Shown here: piece after piece, positions 7,461 to 25,225 of the stretch | Layout: every line of letters starts with the position of its first letter | How positions within the stretch are numbered: position 1 is the first letter of the stretch | From: a virus | Direction: 5' to 3' (one strand) | Virus record (IMG/VR): IMGVR_UViG_3300027969_000398 | Location: 1 to 25,225 of that record | Length of the DNA: 25,225 nt | Notes under the pieces: generated by a model | The model's database searches: none | What the model was told of the DNA's origin: nothing | Seen by the model: only the letters and a program-made list of their open reading frames with translations | Made by a program: the position numbers and the translations under genes

Positions 7461-7474
7461 TATACTAATGCAAA
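7461..7474 (-). promoter_or_regulatory. Shared word TTTGCATTAGTATA upstream of the terminase-like gene
   Basis: On the minus strand the 14-mer ends 3 nt before the ATG at 7457. The identical 14-mer lies upstream of the gene starting at 8495, and a close relative with TATAAT lies upstream of pqqA. It may be a promoter -10 element of a phage-specific class or a shared operator. Confidence 0.35.
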
Positions 7475-8499: not shown

Positions 8500-9855
8500 C
8501 TATACTAATGCAAAATCTAGCGCATTTAGTACGGCCTGTTGAACATTTATTTTTCCCTCTAGTACTTGCACGACGTGCTCATCAATACTTTCATCTATCA
8601 CAAGGTGGTGAATGATCACCGGCTTCTCTTGTCCTTGCCTGTGGATACGGGCGTTGGCTTGAATGTAGTTCTCACTGCTCCACGGTAAATCAAACCATAC
8701 CATCTGCGCGGTGTCTGCCACATTGCATTGTAAGTTAATGCCAATGCCTCCAGATTGAGGATGTGCCACTAACATCTTGATCTTGCCAGCTCGCCAATCA
8801 ACCAAGGTCTGAGGATTGTCGTCTAACACTCTGATATCTTTGAATCTTGTCTTTAGACTCTTCAACGTGTTTTGATAATGGTAAAACACCAAGGTCGGTG
8901 TCTCTTCATCCCAAAGGTCTTCCAAATAATCTAGTTTTGCATCGTGCTGGTGGACTGCCTCTTTGCCCTCATTATACAAAAAGCCGGACGTAAACTGTAG
9001 CAGCTTGTTTGTTAGAGCCGCGGCGCTAACCGCTGTAATAGTTTCTCGGCCTGTCTCAAGCACCAATTCTTTACGCAAGGTGTCGTATTGTTCTTGCATG
9101 TGTACATGCATCTGAACTCTATGATATACCTTGGTCACTTCCGGCAACTTCAAATAATCTTCGGCTTTAAGTGAGAAGCAGATGTCCTTGATCTTGTCTT
9201 GGATCTGTTTGTCTGCGTTTTCAATAAGACCCCATTTATAAATTACGTTGGTGTGGTAGTTTCGTTCGGTGGGGCACATGTACTTAGCTTTAAACTTTGT
9301 ATAGCTTGTCTCTAAACGTTGTCCTAGATCTAAGATCCCAACTTGCGACCATAGATCAGCGTACCCTTGAGGGGTAGGTGTACCCGTCAGTATTATTTTG
9401 CGTTTAAACGTCTTTAAATAACTCTTGAGTGCTTTGAATCTTTTTGTACTTGGGTCTTTGAAGCGTGAACTCTCATCAATCACTAAGTTGTCAAATATAT
9501 TTGACACCATGAAGTCTTTGAATAACCAAGCCACGTTCTCCAAGTTAATGATGTAGATGTTGGCCTCGGACTTAAGCGCGGCAGTTCTCTGTGCCGGTGT
9601 GCCTAAGACCTTAACAATAGTAAGGTCTTTTGTATGCGCCCACTTTGGTATCTCGTCCGACCATACCGACTCGGCCACTCGCTTTGGTGCGATGATTAGT
9701 GTTTTACCTTTAAACTGCTCGGCGATGATGGTGAGGGTGGTTGCTGTCTTACCAAGGCCGGGGGGTAGGAATAGGCCAAGGTTTGGTATCTCCTTGGCCT
9801 TTTCTACGATCTCTTTTTGGTAGTCATGTAGGTTGGATCTCGTTAATGAGGGCAT
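8500..9855 (-). CDS. SNF2-family (SF2) DNA helicase/translocase
   Basis: The 451-aa ATPase shows the SF2 motifs in order: motif I LPPGLGKT at 30-37, motif II DESS at 127-130 (VIDESSRFKD), motif III LTGTPTPQ at 156-163, a SGGIGINLQ motif V, and motif VI QANARIHRQGQ at about 399-409. The RIHRQGQ form is typical of SNF2/Rad54-like translocases. This short type is common in phages next to VRR-NUC nucleases and primase-helicases, and probably remodels replication forks or recombination intermediates. Its start overlaps the VRR-NUC gene by 32 bp. No accessory domain is visible. Confidence 0.92.
   Translation of the reverse strand: MPSLTRSNLHDYQKEIVEKAKEIPNLGLFLPPGLGKTATTLTIIAEQFKGKTLIIAPKRVAESVWSDEIPKWAHTKDLTIVKVLGTPAQRTAALKSEANIYIINLENVAWLFKDFMVSNIFDNLVIDESSRFKDPSTKRFKALKSYLKTFKRKIILTGTPTPQGYADLWSQVGILDLGQRLETSYTKFKAKYMCPTERNYHTNVIYKWGLIENADKQIQDKIKDICFSLKAEDYLKLPEVTKVYHRVQMHVHMQEQYDTLRKELVLETGRETITAVSAAALTNKLLQFTSGFLYNEGKEAVHQHDAKLDYLEDLWDEETPTLVFYHYQNTLKSLKTRFKDIRVLDDNPQTLVDWRAGKIKMLVAHPQSGGIGINLQCNVADTAQMVWFDLPWSSENYIQANARIHRQGQEKPVIIHHLVIDESIDEHVVQVLEGKINVQQAVLNALDFALV
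8501..8514 (-). promoter_or_regulatory. Second copy of TTTGCATTAGTATA
   Basis: This 14-mer is identical to the one at 7461-7474. It lies inside the last codons of the helicase gene and 5 nt before the ATG of the region-4-like gene at 8495. Confidence 0.35.
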
Positions 9856-10114: not shown

Positions 10115-10514
10115 TTAGGCTGGCAGAATATACCTGTTCAACAAATGATTGAGATAAATATGCGCGAGTCTCGCCGGCAATGTTATCTTCACCAATGAAG
10201 TGACCCAGCTTTTCAACTGCGTGCGACACCTCGTGTGAGATAACACCAACCCACATGGCATCGTCTTCTTCATCTTCATAATTTGCTAAATCAAATACCA
10301 TGATGACTAAATCCCCAACGTGCGTGTGGATGGTGTGCGTCTCTGCCTCACCACGTTCAAACGCATGGATGTTGACTGCCAACATGTTCTCTGCAAAAAT
10401 TTGTTGCAACGCCTCGTCGCTAAAACAGAGGTATACGATCTGTGGAAAAAAGCCCGTGTCTATCGAGTAGTACTTAGGCTTTTTGATCGAGGATTTCTTT
10501 ATGGATAGATCCAA
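9867..10514 (-). CDS. Putative zinc metallopeptidase with an overprinted C-terminal tail
   Basis: The 215-aa protein carries a zincin motif SHEVSHAVE (His94, Glu95, His98 in this numbering) and a downstream GETRAYL whose Glu115 can be the third zinc ligand. The N-terminus reads KPKYYSIDTGFFPQIVYLCFS. From about residue 133 the sequence becomes lysine, serine and threonine rich (e.g. SVSNKKGKGKAGD) and is encoded on the same 248 bp as the VRR-NUC gene in another frame. I chose the TTG at 10514 because AAGGAG lies 6 nt upstream; an alternative TTG at 10574 has no such site and would overlap the cupin-like gene more. Substrate unknown. Confidence 0.65.
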   Translation of the reverse strand: MDLSIKKSSIKKPKYYSIDTGFFPQIVYLCFSDEALQQIFAENMLAVNIHAFERGEAETHTIHTHVGDLVIMVFDLANYEDEEDDAMWVGVISHEVSHAVEKLGHFIGEDNIAGETRAYLSQSFVEQVYSASLIERKEIARKRDRSVSNKKGKGKAGDVLEVDINDHGSTGSDSAPPKLPTVRRAKNAKGSDQSETKDSVSTTRTARVSSRSDSV

Positions 10515-10968
10515 CGGGATCTCCTTTCCAATTAATGGTGACTGAAGTAGGGTCTTGGTCTTTCCAATACTCAAAGCTTAGGAATGCCGCTCCGTCTTTA
10601 CCTATGTCTAGCCAATGTGCTAACCCATCGGGTGAACTTGACGACGCACCAAACATGCGGTGTGCGCCATCGGCTCTGGCATAATGCATCTTGTTATCAA
10701 TTTGCGTGCCCTTAGATTCAATATCGAATTTGATATCACCTGTTAAATATACAAACGCTGACTCAACCCCGGGGTGCGTGTGTGGAGGCGAGTTTGCAAA
10801 AGGTTTGGTTAAATATAACTCAACTTGAAAGCGTCCCTCCCTAAATAAACACAATGACATTGCATTGTCTGTGTGGTAAACAGGGTGTAAAAATGGAGGG
10901 CGCATAGGGTACCCTTTAGCCGTGTACCAATCCCTAAATTCCTCAACTGTTTTCCATGAGTTTTGCAT
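10474..10968 (-). CDS. Cupin-like protein B (tandem paralogue)
   Basis: The 164-aa protein contains PPHTHPGVESAFVYLTG, a HxHxxxE...G pattern that matches cupin motif 1 (two His and one Glu as metal ligands). It is a clear paralogue of the next gene upstream: both share RPPF, an H-T..-S-L-C/V-L-F/Y opening, FQVELY or YQVELY, HP.VES...YLTG, a P.GAH segment, and TSV.(I/V)NW.GD near the end. The start is the ATG at 10968 with GGAGAAG upstream. It overlaps the paralogue by 26 bp. The function is unknown; dioxygenase, sugar-modifying or structural metal-binding roles are possible. Confidence 0.65.
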   Translation of the reverse strand: MQNSWKTVEEFRDWYTAKGYPMRPPFLHPVYHTDNAMSLCLFREGRFQVELYLTKPFANSPPHTHPGVESAFVYLTGDIKFDIESKGTQIDNKMHYARADGAHRMFGASSSSPDGLAHWLDIGKDGAAFLSFEYWKDQDPTSVTINWKGDPVGSIHKEILDQKA

Positions 10969-11431
10969 GCTCTTCTCCAATTAAATCACCTACCCAATTG
11001 ACGGACACGGATGTTGGTGTTTGTTTTAGCCACTTTTCAAATACTATAATAGCACCTCCTTGATCGCCTACTTTAAGCATGTGGGGCGATCCCTTGTTTT
11101 CTTCGGCGCGAGTCCAAAGTAATTCATGCGCACCGTTTGGTTTTGCTTTTTGATACGCTGAATTATCTGAGAAGTTTACCCCATCTTTAGAAAAACACAT
11201 GTTTCCGGTCAAGTACATCGTAATTGATTCTACATCGGGGTGACTGTGCATAGGCGTTTGAGTGTTTGGTTTACTGATATACAGTTCAACTTGATACTGC
11301 CCCGCACGATACAACACCAATGAGTGTGCAATTTCAGTCGTGTGAATGGCATTCTCAAACGGCGGGCGCCAAGGGCGATTTTTCATCCACGCTCTAGCAA
11401 ATGTCTCTACATCTCCAAATTTATCTACCAT
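10943..11431 (-). CDS. Cupin-like protein A (tandem paralogue)
   Basis: This 162-aa paralogue of the gene immediately downstream has the cupin-type motif TPMHSHPDVESITMYLTG. Two His and a Glu are retained, so metal binding is plausible in both copies. The surrounding identity (RPPF, VELYISKP, ANGAHELLW-like segment, TSVSVNWVGD) runs almost the whole length, indicating a tandem gene duplication rather than a shared motif. The ATG at 11431 overlaps the end of the upstream small gene by 11 bp. No phage role is known to me for this family. Confidence 0.65.
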   Translation of the reverse strand: MVDKFGDVETFARAWMKNRPWRPPFENAIHTTEIAHSLVLYRAGQYQVELYISKPNTQTPMHSHPDVESITMYLTGNMCFSKDGVNFSDNSAYQKAKPNGAHELLWTRAEENKGSPHMLKVGDQGGAIIVFEKWLKQTPTSVSVNWVGDLIGEEHAKLMENS

Positions 11432-23255: not shown

Positions 23256-23312
23256 CCACACTATCAGCATGGTTATCTGTCAGCCCACCTAATAACCATG
23301 CTGATAGTGTGG
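23256..23312. repeat. Inverted repeat 2: 21-bp perfect arms
   Basis: The arm at 23256-23276 (CCACACTATCAGCATGGTTA.) is the exact reverse complement of 23292-23312, with a 15-nt loop. The ATAACCATGCTG end of the arm recurs in inverted repeat 4. No U-run follows, so it is not a standard terminator. Confidence 0.85.
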
Positions 23313-23327
23313 GCATTGCCTCAATGC

Positions 23328-23399
23328 TAATGAGAAGCATTCGCATCTAGGTCAGCCTACCAATCCAGCGCCTCACCTAGATGCGAATGCTTCTCATTA
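23328..23399. repeat. Inverted repeat 3: 25-bp perfect arms
   Basis: The arm at 23328-23352 (beginning TAATGAGAAGCATTCGCATC) is the exact reverse complement of 23375-23399, with a 22-nt loop. This is the longest perfect hairpin in the window. No coding frame explains the conservation of both arms. Confidence 0.88.
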
Positions 23400-23404
23400 C
23401 GGAT

Positions 23405-23475
23405 CTGCTTGTACGATCGTACAGTGCGTGCCTGATAACCATGCTGGTGTCGTGGTTATTGTACGTGCGTACAGC
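23405..23475. repeat. Inverted repeat 4: nested, with GTACGATCGTAC palindrome
   Basis: The inner arms ATAACCA (23435-23441) and TGGTTAT (23453-23459) lie inside outer arms TGTACGATCGTAC and GTACGTGCGTACA, which pair with a two-base internal mismatch. The left outer arm contains the perfect 12-bp palindrome GTACGATCGTAC. Confidence 0.6.
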
Positions 23476-23956: not shown

Positions 23957-23974
23957 TTTGTGCATTAGTATAAT
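23957..23974 (+). promoter_or_regulatory. Candidate promoter motif upstream of pqqA
   Basis: TTTGTGCATTAGTATAAT contains a perfect TATAAT and the GCATTAGTATA word also found upstream of the genes starting at 7457 and 8495. A weaker AATTAGTATG repeat lies at 24011-24020. No good -35 hexamer is seen 17 bp upstream, so an activator or phage sigma may be needed. It would give a leader of about 85 nt to pqqA. Confidence 0.4.
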
Positions 23975-24061
23975 CATGATAATACTTAGCCAACATGTAT
24001 AGAAATTGTGAATTAGTATGTATATACACAATGACGTGTATACAAACTTAAGGAATCTATC

Positions 24062-24133
24062 ATGTGGACAACACCAGCAGCTACTGAAATGCGTTTTGGC
24101 TTTGAAGTAACAATGTACGTAATGAACAAGTAG
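24062..24133 (+). CDS. pqqA: PqqA-like pyrroloquinoline quinone precursor peptide, 23 aa
   Basis: The peptide starts MWTTPAATEMRFGFEVTMY and ends with a short VMNK-type tail. This matches bacterial PqqA over its whole length: MW.(K/T)P opening, (D/E)(L/M)R.G(L/F)EVT(M/L)Y core, and a 23-residue size. The essential glutamate and tyrosine are present as Glu15 and Tyr19 in the ExxxY spacing that the radical-SAM enzyme PqqE joins to begin PQQ synthesis. AAGGAA lies 6 nt before the ATG. No other pqq genes are in the window, so the phage would rely on the host PqqB-F enzymes and could raise supply of the precursor. It is the first gene on the plus strand and is followed by a perfect hairpin. Chance similarity is unlikely given the full-length agreement. 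Confidence 0.82.
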   Translation: MWTTPAATEMRFGFEVTMYVMNK

Positions 24134-24157: not shown

Positions 24158-24195
24158 CTCATGGTTTACATTTAGCATGTAATGTAAACCATGAG
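24158..24195 (+). promoter_or_regulatory. Perfect 15-bp hairpin after pqqA
   Basis: CTCATGGTTTACATT at 24158-24172 is the exact reverse complement of 24181-24195, with an 8-nt loop, 24 nt after the pqqA stop. No U-run follows, so it probably stabilises the pqqA message or attenuates read-through into the next gene. A 10-bp palindrome GGTTTAAACC lies just before it at 24144-24153. Confidence 0.65.
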
Positions 24196-24259: not shown

Positions 24260-25225
24260 ATGGCAATCACTGCAAATCAATCCGTATTAACCTTGGATTA
24301 TTGGAAGTACGCCCGCCACATTGAGGTGGGGGACTGGGTATTTAACAAGGACGGTAAGCCAGTACAGGTCACCTTGGTGCAGCAGTACCACGCCGAGGAG
24401 TGCTATGAGGTAATGTTTGATGACTACCTGACAATCAGCGGAGACGCGCGGTTATCATTCAGGGCAGAGAACGAGAAGTACAGAAAACGATTGCACGAAT
24501 ACAAGATGGTCAAGAAGAACGGATTCAAACGACCACTTAAGTTCCTGAGTGTGACTGAGATACAAGAGATCGGGTTACTTGGAAGGAACGACAGGAAAGA
24601 ATTCTCAATCCCCACCACCAAACCCATTCAATTTCCGGCACAGACACCGGGCATCCCGCCGTTTATCTTTGGTTATTGGTTTTTTAATAGAAAATCACAC
24701 AAGACATTCACGGCAAATACAGAAGCTAAAGACTTTATCTACCAAAAATTCAAAGACGCAGGGTATAAGACCACAGAACTTAATGCAATACGTGGCGGAC
24801 TGCAAAGATTTTACGAAGATCCGAACATTGAGTGGCAACTTGCACCAAATATTCCGACAAAGATCCCAACAAATTACTTAATGGCGTCTCCGGAAGAGCG
24901 TGTTGAGCTTCTCTCAGGGTTAATTAATGGAAAACCGCGCCAGTATGACAAAAAAACCGACTGGTTTAGGATAACGACAGGCGATTTTCCAACAATTCAG
25001 CAAATCCAAGGGCTCGTGGAGTCACTTGGATGTAGGACAAGGGTAAAACAAGACGCGCACTATGGTTATTACACGTTAAGTTTTAGAACAAAACACACCT
25101 TGGTGCCACACCAGGTGTCAAAACCAGTAAAAGTGCACCATGCACGAAGATACATCAAGCAAATTAGTACATTACCCGCCCAAATGGTGGTTCACATTGA
25201 GACGACGGATGATGATAACTCAATA
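24260..25225 (+). CDS. Intein-like (Hint) protein with degenerate LAGLIDADG motifs, possibly the N-terminus of the large terminase; partial
   Basis: 322 codons are open to the right edge. The N-terminus (MAITANQSVLTLDYWKYARH, then IEVGDWVFNKDGKPVQV) follows intein block A but with no Cys/Ser nucleophile at position 1. GDARLSFRAEN stands where block B is expected. FIFGYWFFN and PEERVELLSGLIN occupy the places of the two LAGLIDADG helices with catalytic acids lost. The last codons, HIETTDDDNSI, look like the approach to intein block F. This is therefore an inactive Hint/homing-endonuclease relic. In related phages I associate such a segment with the front of the large terminase, which would fit its place at the head of the rightward genes. 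What follows is outside the window. Confidence 0.6.
   Translation, partial: MAITANQSVLTLDYWKYARHIEVGDWVFNKDGKPVQVTLVQQYHAEECYEVMFDDYLTISGDARLSFRAENEKYRKRLHEYKMVKKNGFKRPLKFLSVTEIQEIGLLGRNDRKEFSIPTTKPIQFPAQTPGIPPFIFGYWFFNRKSHKTFTANTEAKDFIYQKFKDAGYKTTELNAIRGGLQRFYEDPNIEWQLAPNIPTKIPTNYLMASPEERVELLSGLINGKPRQYDKKTDWFRITTGDFPTIQQIQGLVESLGCRTRVKQDAHYGYYTLSFRTKHTLVPHQVSKPVKVHHARRYIKQISTLPAQMVVHIETTDDDNSI

Follow-up and report, generated by a model that had tools for sequence, protein, structure and literature searches.

Phage-borne pqqA has been described in the Lake Baikal virus VP_266, which carries the gene together with a viral methanol dehydrogenase (PMC7678222), and virus-encoded pqqA is listed, without detail, in a 2026 reservoir study (PMC13188868). 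The first-pass annotation of the DNA analysed here had been unsure whether phage pqqA was known; these two papers settle the point. On the host side, Beck et al. described 3-12 pqqA copies versus a single pqqBCDE (PMC4109929). Phage P19250A is said to encode none of the pqqA and methanol dehydrogenase genes of VP_266 (PMC7678222). Contrary to this statement, tblastn and inspection of the locus demonstrate that P19250A does encode pqqA. In the papers on Melnitz, MEP301, Venkman and MEP401/402 we found no mention of pqqA.

In PQQ biosynthesis, PqqE acts with PqqD to cross-link a Glu and a Tyr of PqqA, and the remaining peptide is discarded. One PqqA is spent per PQQ, and PqqB-E are reusable catalysts. 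Hosts answer by multiplying pqqA alone. Here, we describe a pqqA gene in a 25,225-base virus fragment, referred to as the window.

The pqqA gene and its surroundings

The pqqA ORF of the window encodes a 23-aa PQQ precursor peptide, MWTTPAATEMRFGFEVTMYVMNK, and ends with a TAG stop. The ORF, the peptide and the motif proposed in the first-pass annotation (MW..P, RFGFEVTMY, Glu15-x3-Tyr19) agree exactly with the sequence, and Glu15 and Tyr19 show the E-x3-Y spacing used in cross-linking by PqqE. The suggested comparison with PqqA profiles gave matches that exceed the curated cut-offs in two libraries, which is the criterion for family membership: Pfam PF08042 (PqqA) with E 3e-10 and 40.3 bits (cut-off 21.1) over the full length of the model (1-19/19), and the NCBIfam equivalog TIGR02107 with E 5.6e-10 and 38.8 bits (cut-off 20). 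An independently run six-frame PqqA search recovered the same ORF and was negative in the controls (0/14 genomes). A degenerate PqqA DNA pattern matched the window once and none of 100 shuffled versions. Hence the observation is confirmed, and the ORF is a true, full-length PqqA gene.

The leftward block of the window encodes a family A DNA polymerase, ribonucleotide reductase, an Enc34-type ssDNA-binding protein, a PD-(D/E)XK exonuclease, an SNF2-type helicase, a PriCT-2/D5 primase and an ArdC-like antirestriction protein. On the minus strand at 10474-11431 lie two adjacent, similar-looking ORFs of 168 and 162 aa, the second with a weak cupin-type match (PCO_ADO) below the cut-off. The rightward block begins with pqqA. 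Its position at the head of a rightward transcript, as claimed beforehand, is borne out by the gene order in L250, the closest relative with 98% in the ORF after pqqA, where pqqA is followed by a 354-aa Hint/homing-endonuclease-like ORF, a 479-aa terminase large subunit and a 957-aa portal-like ORF. The Hint-like ORF (1533-2597 in L250) appears to be a free-standing Hint/LAGLIDADG-like, i.e. intein-like, protein that stops right at the start of the terminase gene. Compared with solved intein-type "replicative DNA helicase" chains, its sequence gives only weak matches (E 0.05).

A near match of the window at the DNA level was not found in the phage collection. Five related loci (L250, L251, L252, L271 and L276) carry pqqA at the equivalent place, and a 66-kb relative (G200) has a pqqA too. 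Among the five, the pqqA coding sequence is nearly constant, and the palindrome before it and the hairpin after it are swapped. Compared with the window, pqqA differs by three synonymous and no nonsynonymous changes in L271, by five and one in L276, and by six and none in the cultured phage P19250A. Thus, of the frame and hairpin that were to be sought together in related contigs, the frame is kept and the hairpin is replaced. The majority of distant (primase) relatives of the window phage are without pqqA, perhaps owing to other hosts.

Features at the pqqA locus of the window (strand "." where none is assigned).
Feature	Position	Strand	Remark
Two TGNATTAGTAT copies	23961-23971, 24009-24019	+	5' of pqqA
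Imperfect palindrome GTATATACAC-aatgac-GTGTATAC	24020-24043	.	between TGAATTAGTAT motif and Shine-Dalgarno sequence
Shine-Dalgarno sequence AAGGAA	24050-24055	+	6 nt 5' of pqqA ATG
pqqA	24062-24133	+	PF08042 and TIGR02107 matches; purifying selection judged from codon changes
Stem-loop, perfect 15-bp inverted repeat 24158-24172/24181-24195	24158-24195	.	3' of pqqA
Hint/homing-endonuclease-like ORF, runs off window	24260-25225	+	precedes terminase large subunit in L250; context only

The good ribosome-binding site claimed for the gene is present, and a Shine-Dalgarno core is found at -20 to -4 in 112 of 117 viral pqqA copies. The claim that pqqA has flanking structures of its own holds for the 3' stem-loop and the 5' palindrome. 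A T-run is absent from the plus strand of the stem-loop, and a terminator scan calls it on the minus strand only. The stem-loop is a probable 3' end or stabiliser of the pqqA transcript; in L250 its place is taken by GCACCC-TTCG-GGGTGC. The palindrome is inferred to be an operator or a 5' mRNA hairpin. L250, L251, L271 and P19250A have different palindromes at the equivalent position. Fold z-scores at the window pqqA are about -3 on the 3' side and about -2 on the 5' side, and in 63% of viral pqqA copies the fold of the 3' flank is significantly more stable than in shuffled sequence. An Rfam search around pqqA gave no match.

A scan of the plus strand 5' of pqqA revealed no sigma-70-like promoter. 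The TGNATTAGTAT pair may represent promoter elements, a function that has not been shown. Exact copies occur four times in the window, the other two on the minus strand (7462-7472 and 8502-8512) directly upstream of ORF starts, and the motif may be a promoter or operator element of the phage. With one mismatch allowed, it is not overrepresented across the entire window, as the observed count is attained in 8 of 100 shuffles. ATTAGTA as a general promoter of viral pqqA was ruled out, with only 1 of 117 viral copies having this motif. About one third of viral pqqA copies are flanked on both sides by opposite-strand genes and therefore probably have their own promoter, which remains unidentified. 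The intergenic region in which the window switches from leftward to rightward genes contains strong hairpins (one of 21 bp, perfect, and one of 28 bp, 96%) and paired TTGTACGnnCGTACAG palindromes (23256-23312, 23328-23399 and 23409-23474).

Spread and selection among phages

A tblastn search of a phage collection of 50,697 records detected PqqA in 9/9 of the Methylophilales/Methylophilaceae-host records found: P19250A, MEP301, MEP401, MEP402, Venkman and four Melnitz phages. This fraction refers to the records brought up by the search, as a complete Methylophilales list of the collection was not obtainable. MEP431-434, Venkman EXVC038S, MG-MtP1 and RSA-MfP1, which appear in the taxonomy or in publications, were not among the records recovered. 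PqqA was also present in one uncultured podovirus from spring water (Manatee Spring). A Pseudomonas-type PqqA as second query returned the identical record list, and neither query revealed a further true phage record with PqqA among the 50,697. Two contigs labelled Acinetobacter phage MD-2021a (CAKLQF020000010.1 and CAKLQH020000055.1) hold pqqA and were set aside; the one inspected, CAKLQF020000010.1, clearly contains pqqABCDE and ppk from a bacterial chromosome and is hence mislabelled or contaminated.

The taxonomy lines of the phage carriers vary (Kyanoviridae, Zobellviridae, unclassified). When the 5-kb end region of MEP401 served as blastn query, pqqA was the sole segment that P19250A, MEP301, Venkman, Melnitz and the Manatee phage had in common with it. 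The gene is not annotated in P19250A, MEP301, Venkman, MEP401 or MEP402 and is hidden by an antisense ORF in Melnitz and Manatee. In IMG/VR, two pattern scans yielded at least 169 distinct pqqA loci, in records of up to 356 kb. Carriage is patchy: of the P19250A-like and Venkman-like records longer than 32 kb, 8/13 have pqqA and 5/13 lack it. Prevalence within a group can be estimated from such long records only, and the clustering of contigs by shared proteins (partial loci, single linkage) does not count lineages. One 72-kb virus record, L058 (IMGVR_UViG_3300025120_009955), encodes, along with pqqA, a PQQ-dependent alcohol/methanol dehydrogenase of 624 aa whose start resembles a signal peptide (L348, 1084-2958), an observation that supports the Baikal report.

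None of pqqB, C, D or E is encoded in 176 viral loci (1.45 Mb), versus 21 of 120 host pqqA loci, and contamination of the viral contigs by host fragments was rejected on this ground. PqqE above the curated cut-off was absent from all 49 viral records searched, 26 of which contain a phrog_2 terminase. The location of pqqA in phage genomes is further evident from neighbouring polymerase, primase, RNR, ssDNA-binding and terminase-linked genes, from synteny in relatives and from the cultured carriers. We thus observe a conserved PqqA-family gene spread through unrelated methylotroph phages, without other pqq genes at the loci examined.

The first search pattern forced several residues, and pN/pS values derived from it are partly forced as well. 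Therefore, two unforced tests were made. When the codons of Glu15 and Tyr19 were left free in the search, both residues were kept in 109/109 distinct viral sequences among the matches listed, with Tyr19 encoded by TAC in 60 and by TAT in 49. Because all other positions of this pattern were held to the Methylophilaceae consensus, the set favours intact copies. At the 12 codons that were free in the first pattern, the pooled pN/pS was 0.32 and dN/dS about 0.17. Loss of Glu15/Tyr19 or of the frame, which would have refuted the proposal, was encountered neither in close relatives nor in these 109 sequences, and dN/dS lay below 1. As far as codon changes can tell, pqqA is under selection in phages.

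This bears on whether pqqA is merely a host cassette that recombination brought into the phage and that confers no benefit. The sense codons of the window gene are identical to those of the operon pqqA of Methylotenera oryzisoli, the cassette flanks are exchanged between closely related phages and carriage is patchy, all as expected for passive cargo. However, the low dN/dS over viral copies, the retained Shine-Dalgarno core (112/117) and the repeated occurrence in phages that are unrelated but share one host family, with absence from other phages, point to selection and render passive carriage unlikely.

Host and proposed role

In Methylophilaceae, pqqA is found in 120/120 genomes with 1-12 copies each, and full PqqE in 22/25 genomes. 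The check that the host carries PQQ genes, and with it the requirement that the host of an auxiliary metabolic gene has the pathway, is therefore met for the host family; the exact host of the phage is inferred. Three streamlined, small Methylophilaceae assemblies (G011, G013 and G024) have pqqA without full PqqE and are either incomplete or represent PQQ-importing hosts; G011 consists almost of one 1.0-Mb contig. The window pqqA and the operon pqqA of M. oryzisoli (L200) differ in the stop codon only (TAG versus TAA). The GC content of the window is 43.6%, compared with a median of 42.9% for host loci and 33.6% for P19250A. Because of the matching sense codons and the GC content near the host-locus median, we infer that the host is probably a Methylotenera-like member of the Methylophilaceae.

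The many scattered pqqA copies of these hosts also raise the question of whether the phage gene is an integration site, i.e. an attP block identical to the multicopy pqqA of the host. Phages do have such att identity blocks. Yet the phage copy is a complete gene with Shine-Dalgarno sequence and start, it diverges synonymously from most host copies although att cores need identity, and pqqA occurs in the T4-like Melnitz genomes. We regard this explanation as scarcely tenable.

We propose, with a probability of roughly 0.8, that pqqA of this Methylophilaceae-host phage is a substrate-only auxiliary metabolic gene which supplies extra substrate to the single-copy PqqB-E of the host. During infection the phage would produce additional PqqA, in which host PqqD/PqqE would join Glu15 to Tyr19. 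A host protease, PqqB and PqqC would then complete PQQ. The periplasmic methanol dehydrogenase XoxF/MxaF may thereby remain loaded and active late in infection, and energy and formaldehyde carbon flow could continue during phage replication. Expression, cross-linking, a rise in PQQ and a benefit to the phage are inferred. Since PqqA is consumed one per PQQ and PqqB-E are reusable, pqqA alone would suffice as cargo, and the hosts follow the same logic with many pqqA copies versus a single pqqBCDE.

Expression of standalone pqqA copies has been observed in a methylotroph, where it increases with PQQ output (PMC9851590). A cell extract is reported to turn added PqqA into PQQ at 70-80%, a value available to us only as cited in PMC9851590. 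In Acetobacter, extra pqqAB raised PQQ modestly, by 29%, versus eightfold for full pqqABCDE (PMC7936290). From these methylotroph and Acetobacter data it follows that a phage can add substrate with 72 nt and that the effect depends on enzyme capacity. The modest effect of pqqAB, the patchy carriage within phage groups and the lack of a consensus promoter are points against a supply role. The auxiliary-metabolic-gene reading of the first-pass annotation is nevertheless supported as the best one, the effect on the host being inferred and not shown.

That annotation had also left open a decoy. In this case, phage PqqA would saturate PqqD/PqqE, lower PQQ and stop host methanol oxidation or a PQQ-dependent competitor. 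Phages often turn off host functions, and a short leader-bearing peptide could titrate PqqD, which is a general inference without direct evidence. For a decoy, loss or change of the reacting residues or of the core would be expected, but Glu15 and Tyr19 are invariant among the matches listed (109/109), and viral peptides are identical to those of hosts, among them the peptide that hosts carry most often. The related virus with a PQQ dehydrogenase along with pqqA likewise fits boosting. With the cross-linked residues and the whole peptide remaining host-like, a decoy is improbable.

Under the preferred supply reading, pqqA is probably a common and overlooked means for such viruses to keep host methanol metabolism going. 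A more far-reaching version, for which we see even odds, is that pqqA is a recurrently acquired near-hallmark of Methylophilaceae phages of unrelated lineages. It would then be a 72-nt mobile host/phage cassette, skipped by gene callers, that controls PQQ supply and methanol oxidation solely via the consumable substrate of a RiPP pathway.

Significance and comparison with known systems

Coastal seas and lakes harbour abundant methylotrophs of the OM43 and LD28 types, which use PQQ enzymes to oxidise methanol. If phages of such methylotrophs routinely carry pqqA, viral infection has a direct input into methanol turnover, and the phage genomes published so far would need re-annotation. Cultured phage-host pairs make the role of pqqA directly testable. 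Viral pqqA also exemplifies very small auxiliary genes (RiPP precursors) that are missed by standard pipelines. Judged against the open-access literature only, the breadth and near-ubiquity in cultured methylotroph phages, the host restriction and the evidence for selection appear to be new.

The chromosomal pqqABCDE of M. oryzisoli encodes the identical 23-aa peptide with Glu15/Tyr19. In contrast to this operon, the window pqqA stands alone in a phage genome, with other flanks and no adjoining pqqBCDE. The cultured phages P19250A, MEP301, MEP401/402, Venkman and Melnitz share the PqqA family, the Shine-Dalgarno sequence and the absence of neighbouring pqq genes, and the P19250A peptide is identical over 23 aa; they differ in phage family and genome position, and none is annotated as carrying pqqA. 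With Baikal VP_266 the window has in common a phage-borne pqqA, predicted infection of Methylophilaceae and the interpretation as an auxiliary metabolic gene. VP_266, however, is T4-like and a single representative, whereas the window carries a terminase-linked cassette in another phage group that is widespread and, by its codon changes, under selection. Cyanophage psbA is an auxiliary gene that resupplies a fast-consumed host component during infection. Phage pqqA would resemble it in keeping such a component supplied, but what it would provide is the ribosomal precursor peptide of a cofactor rather than an enzyme or photosystem protein.
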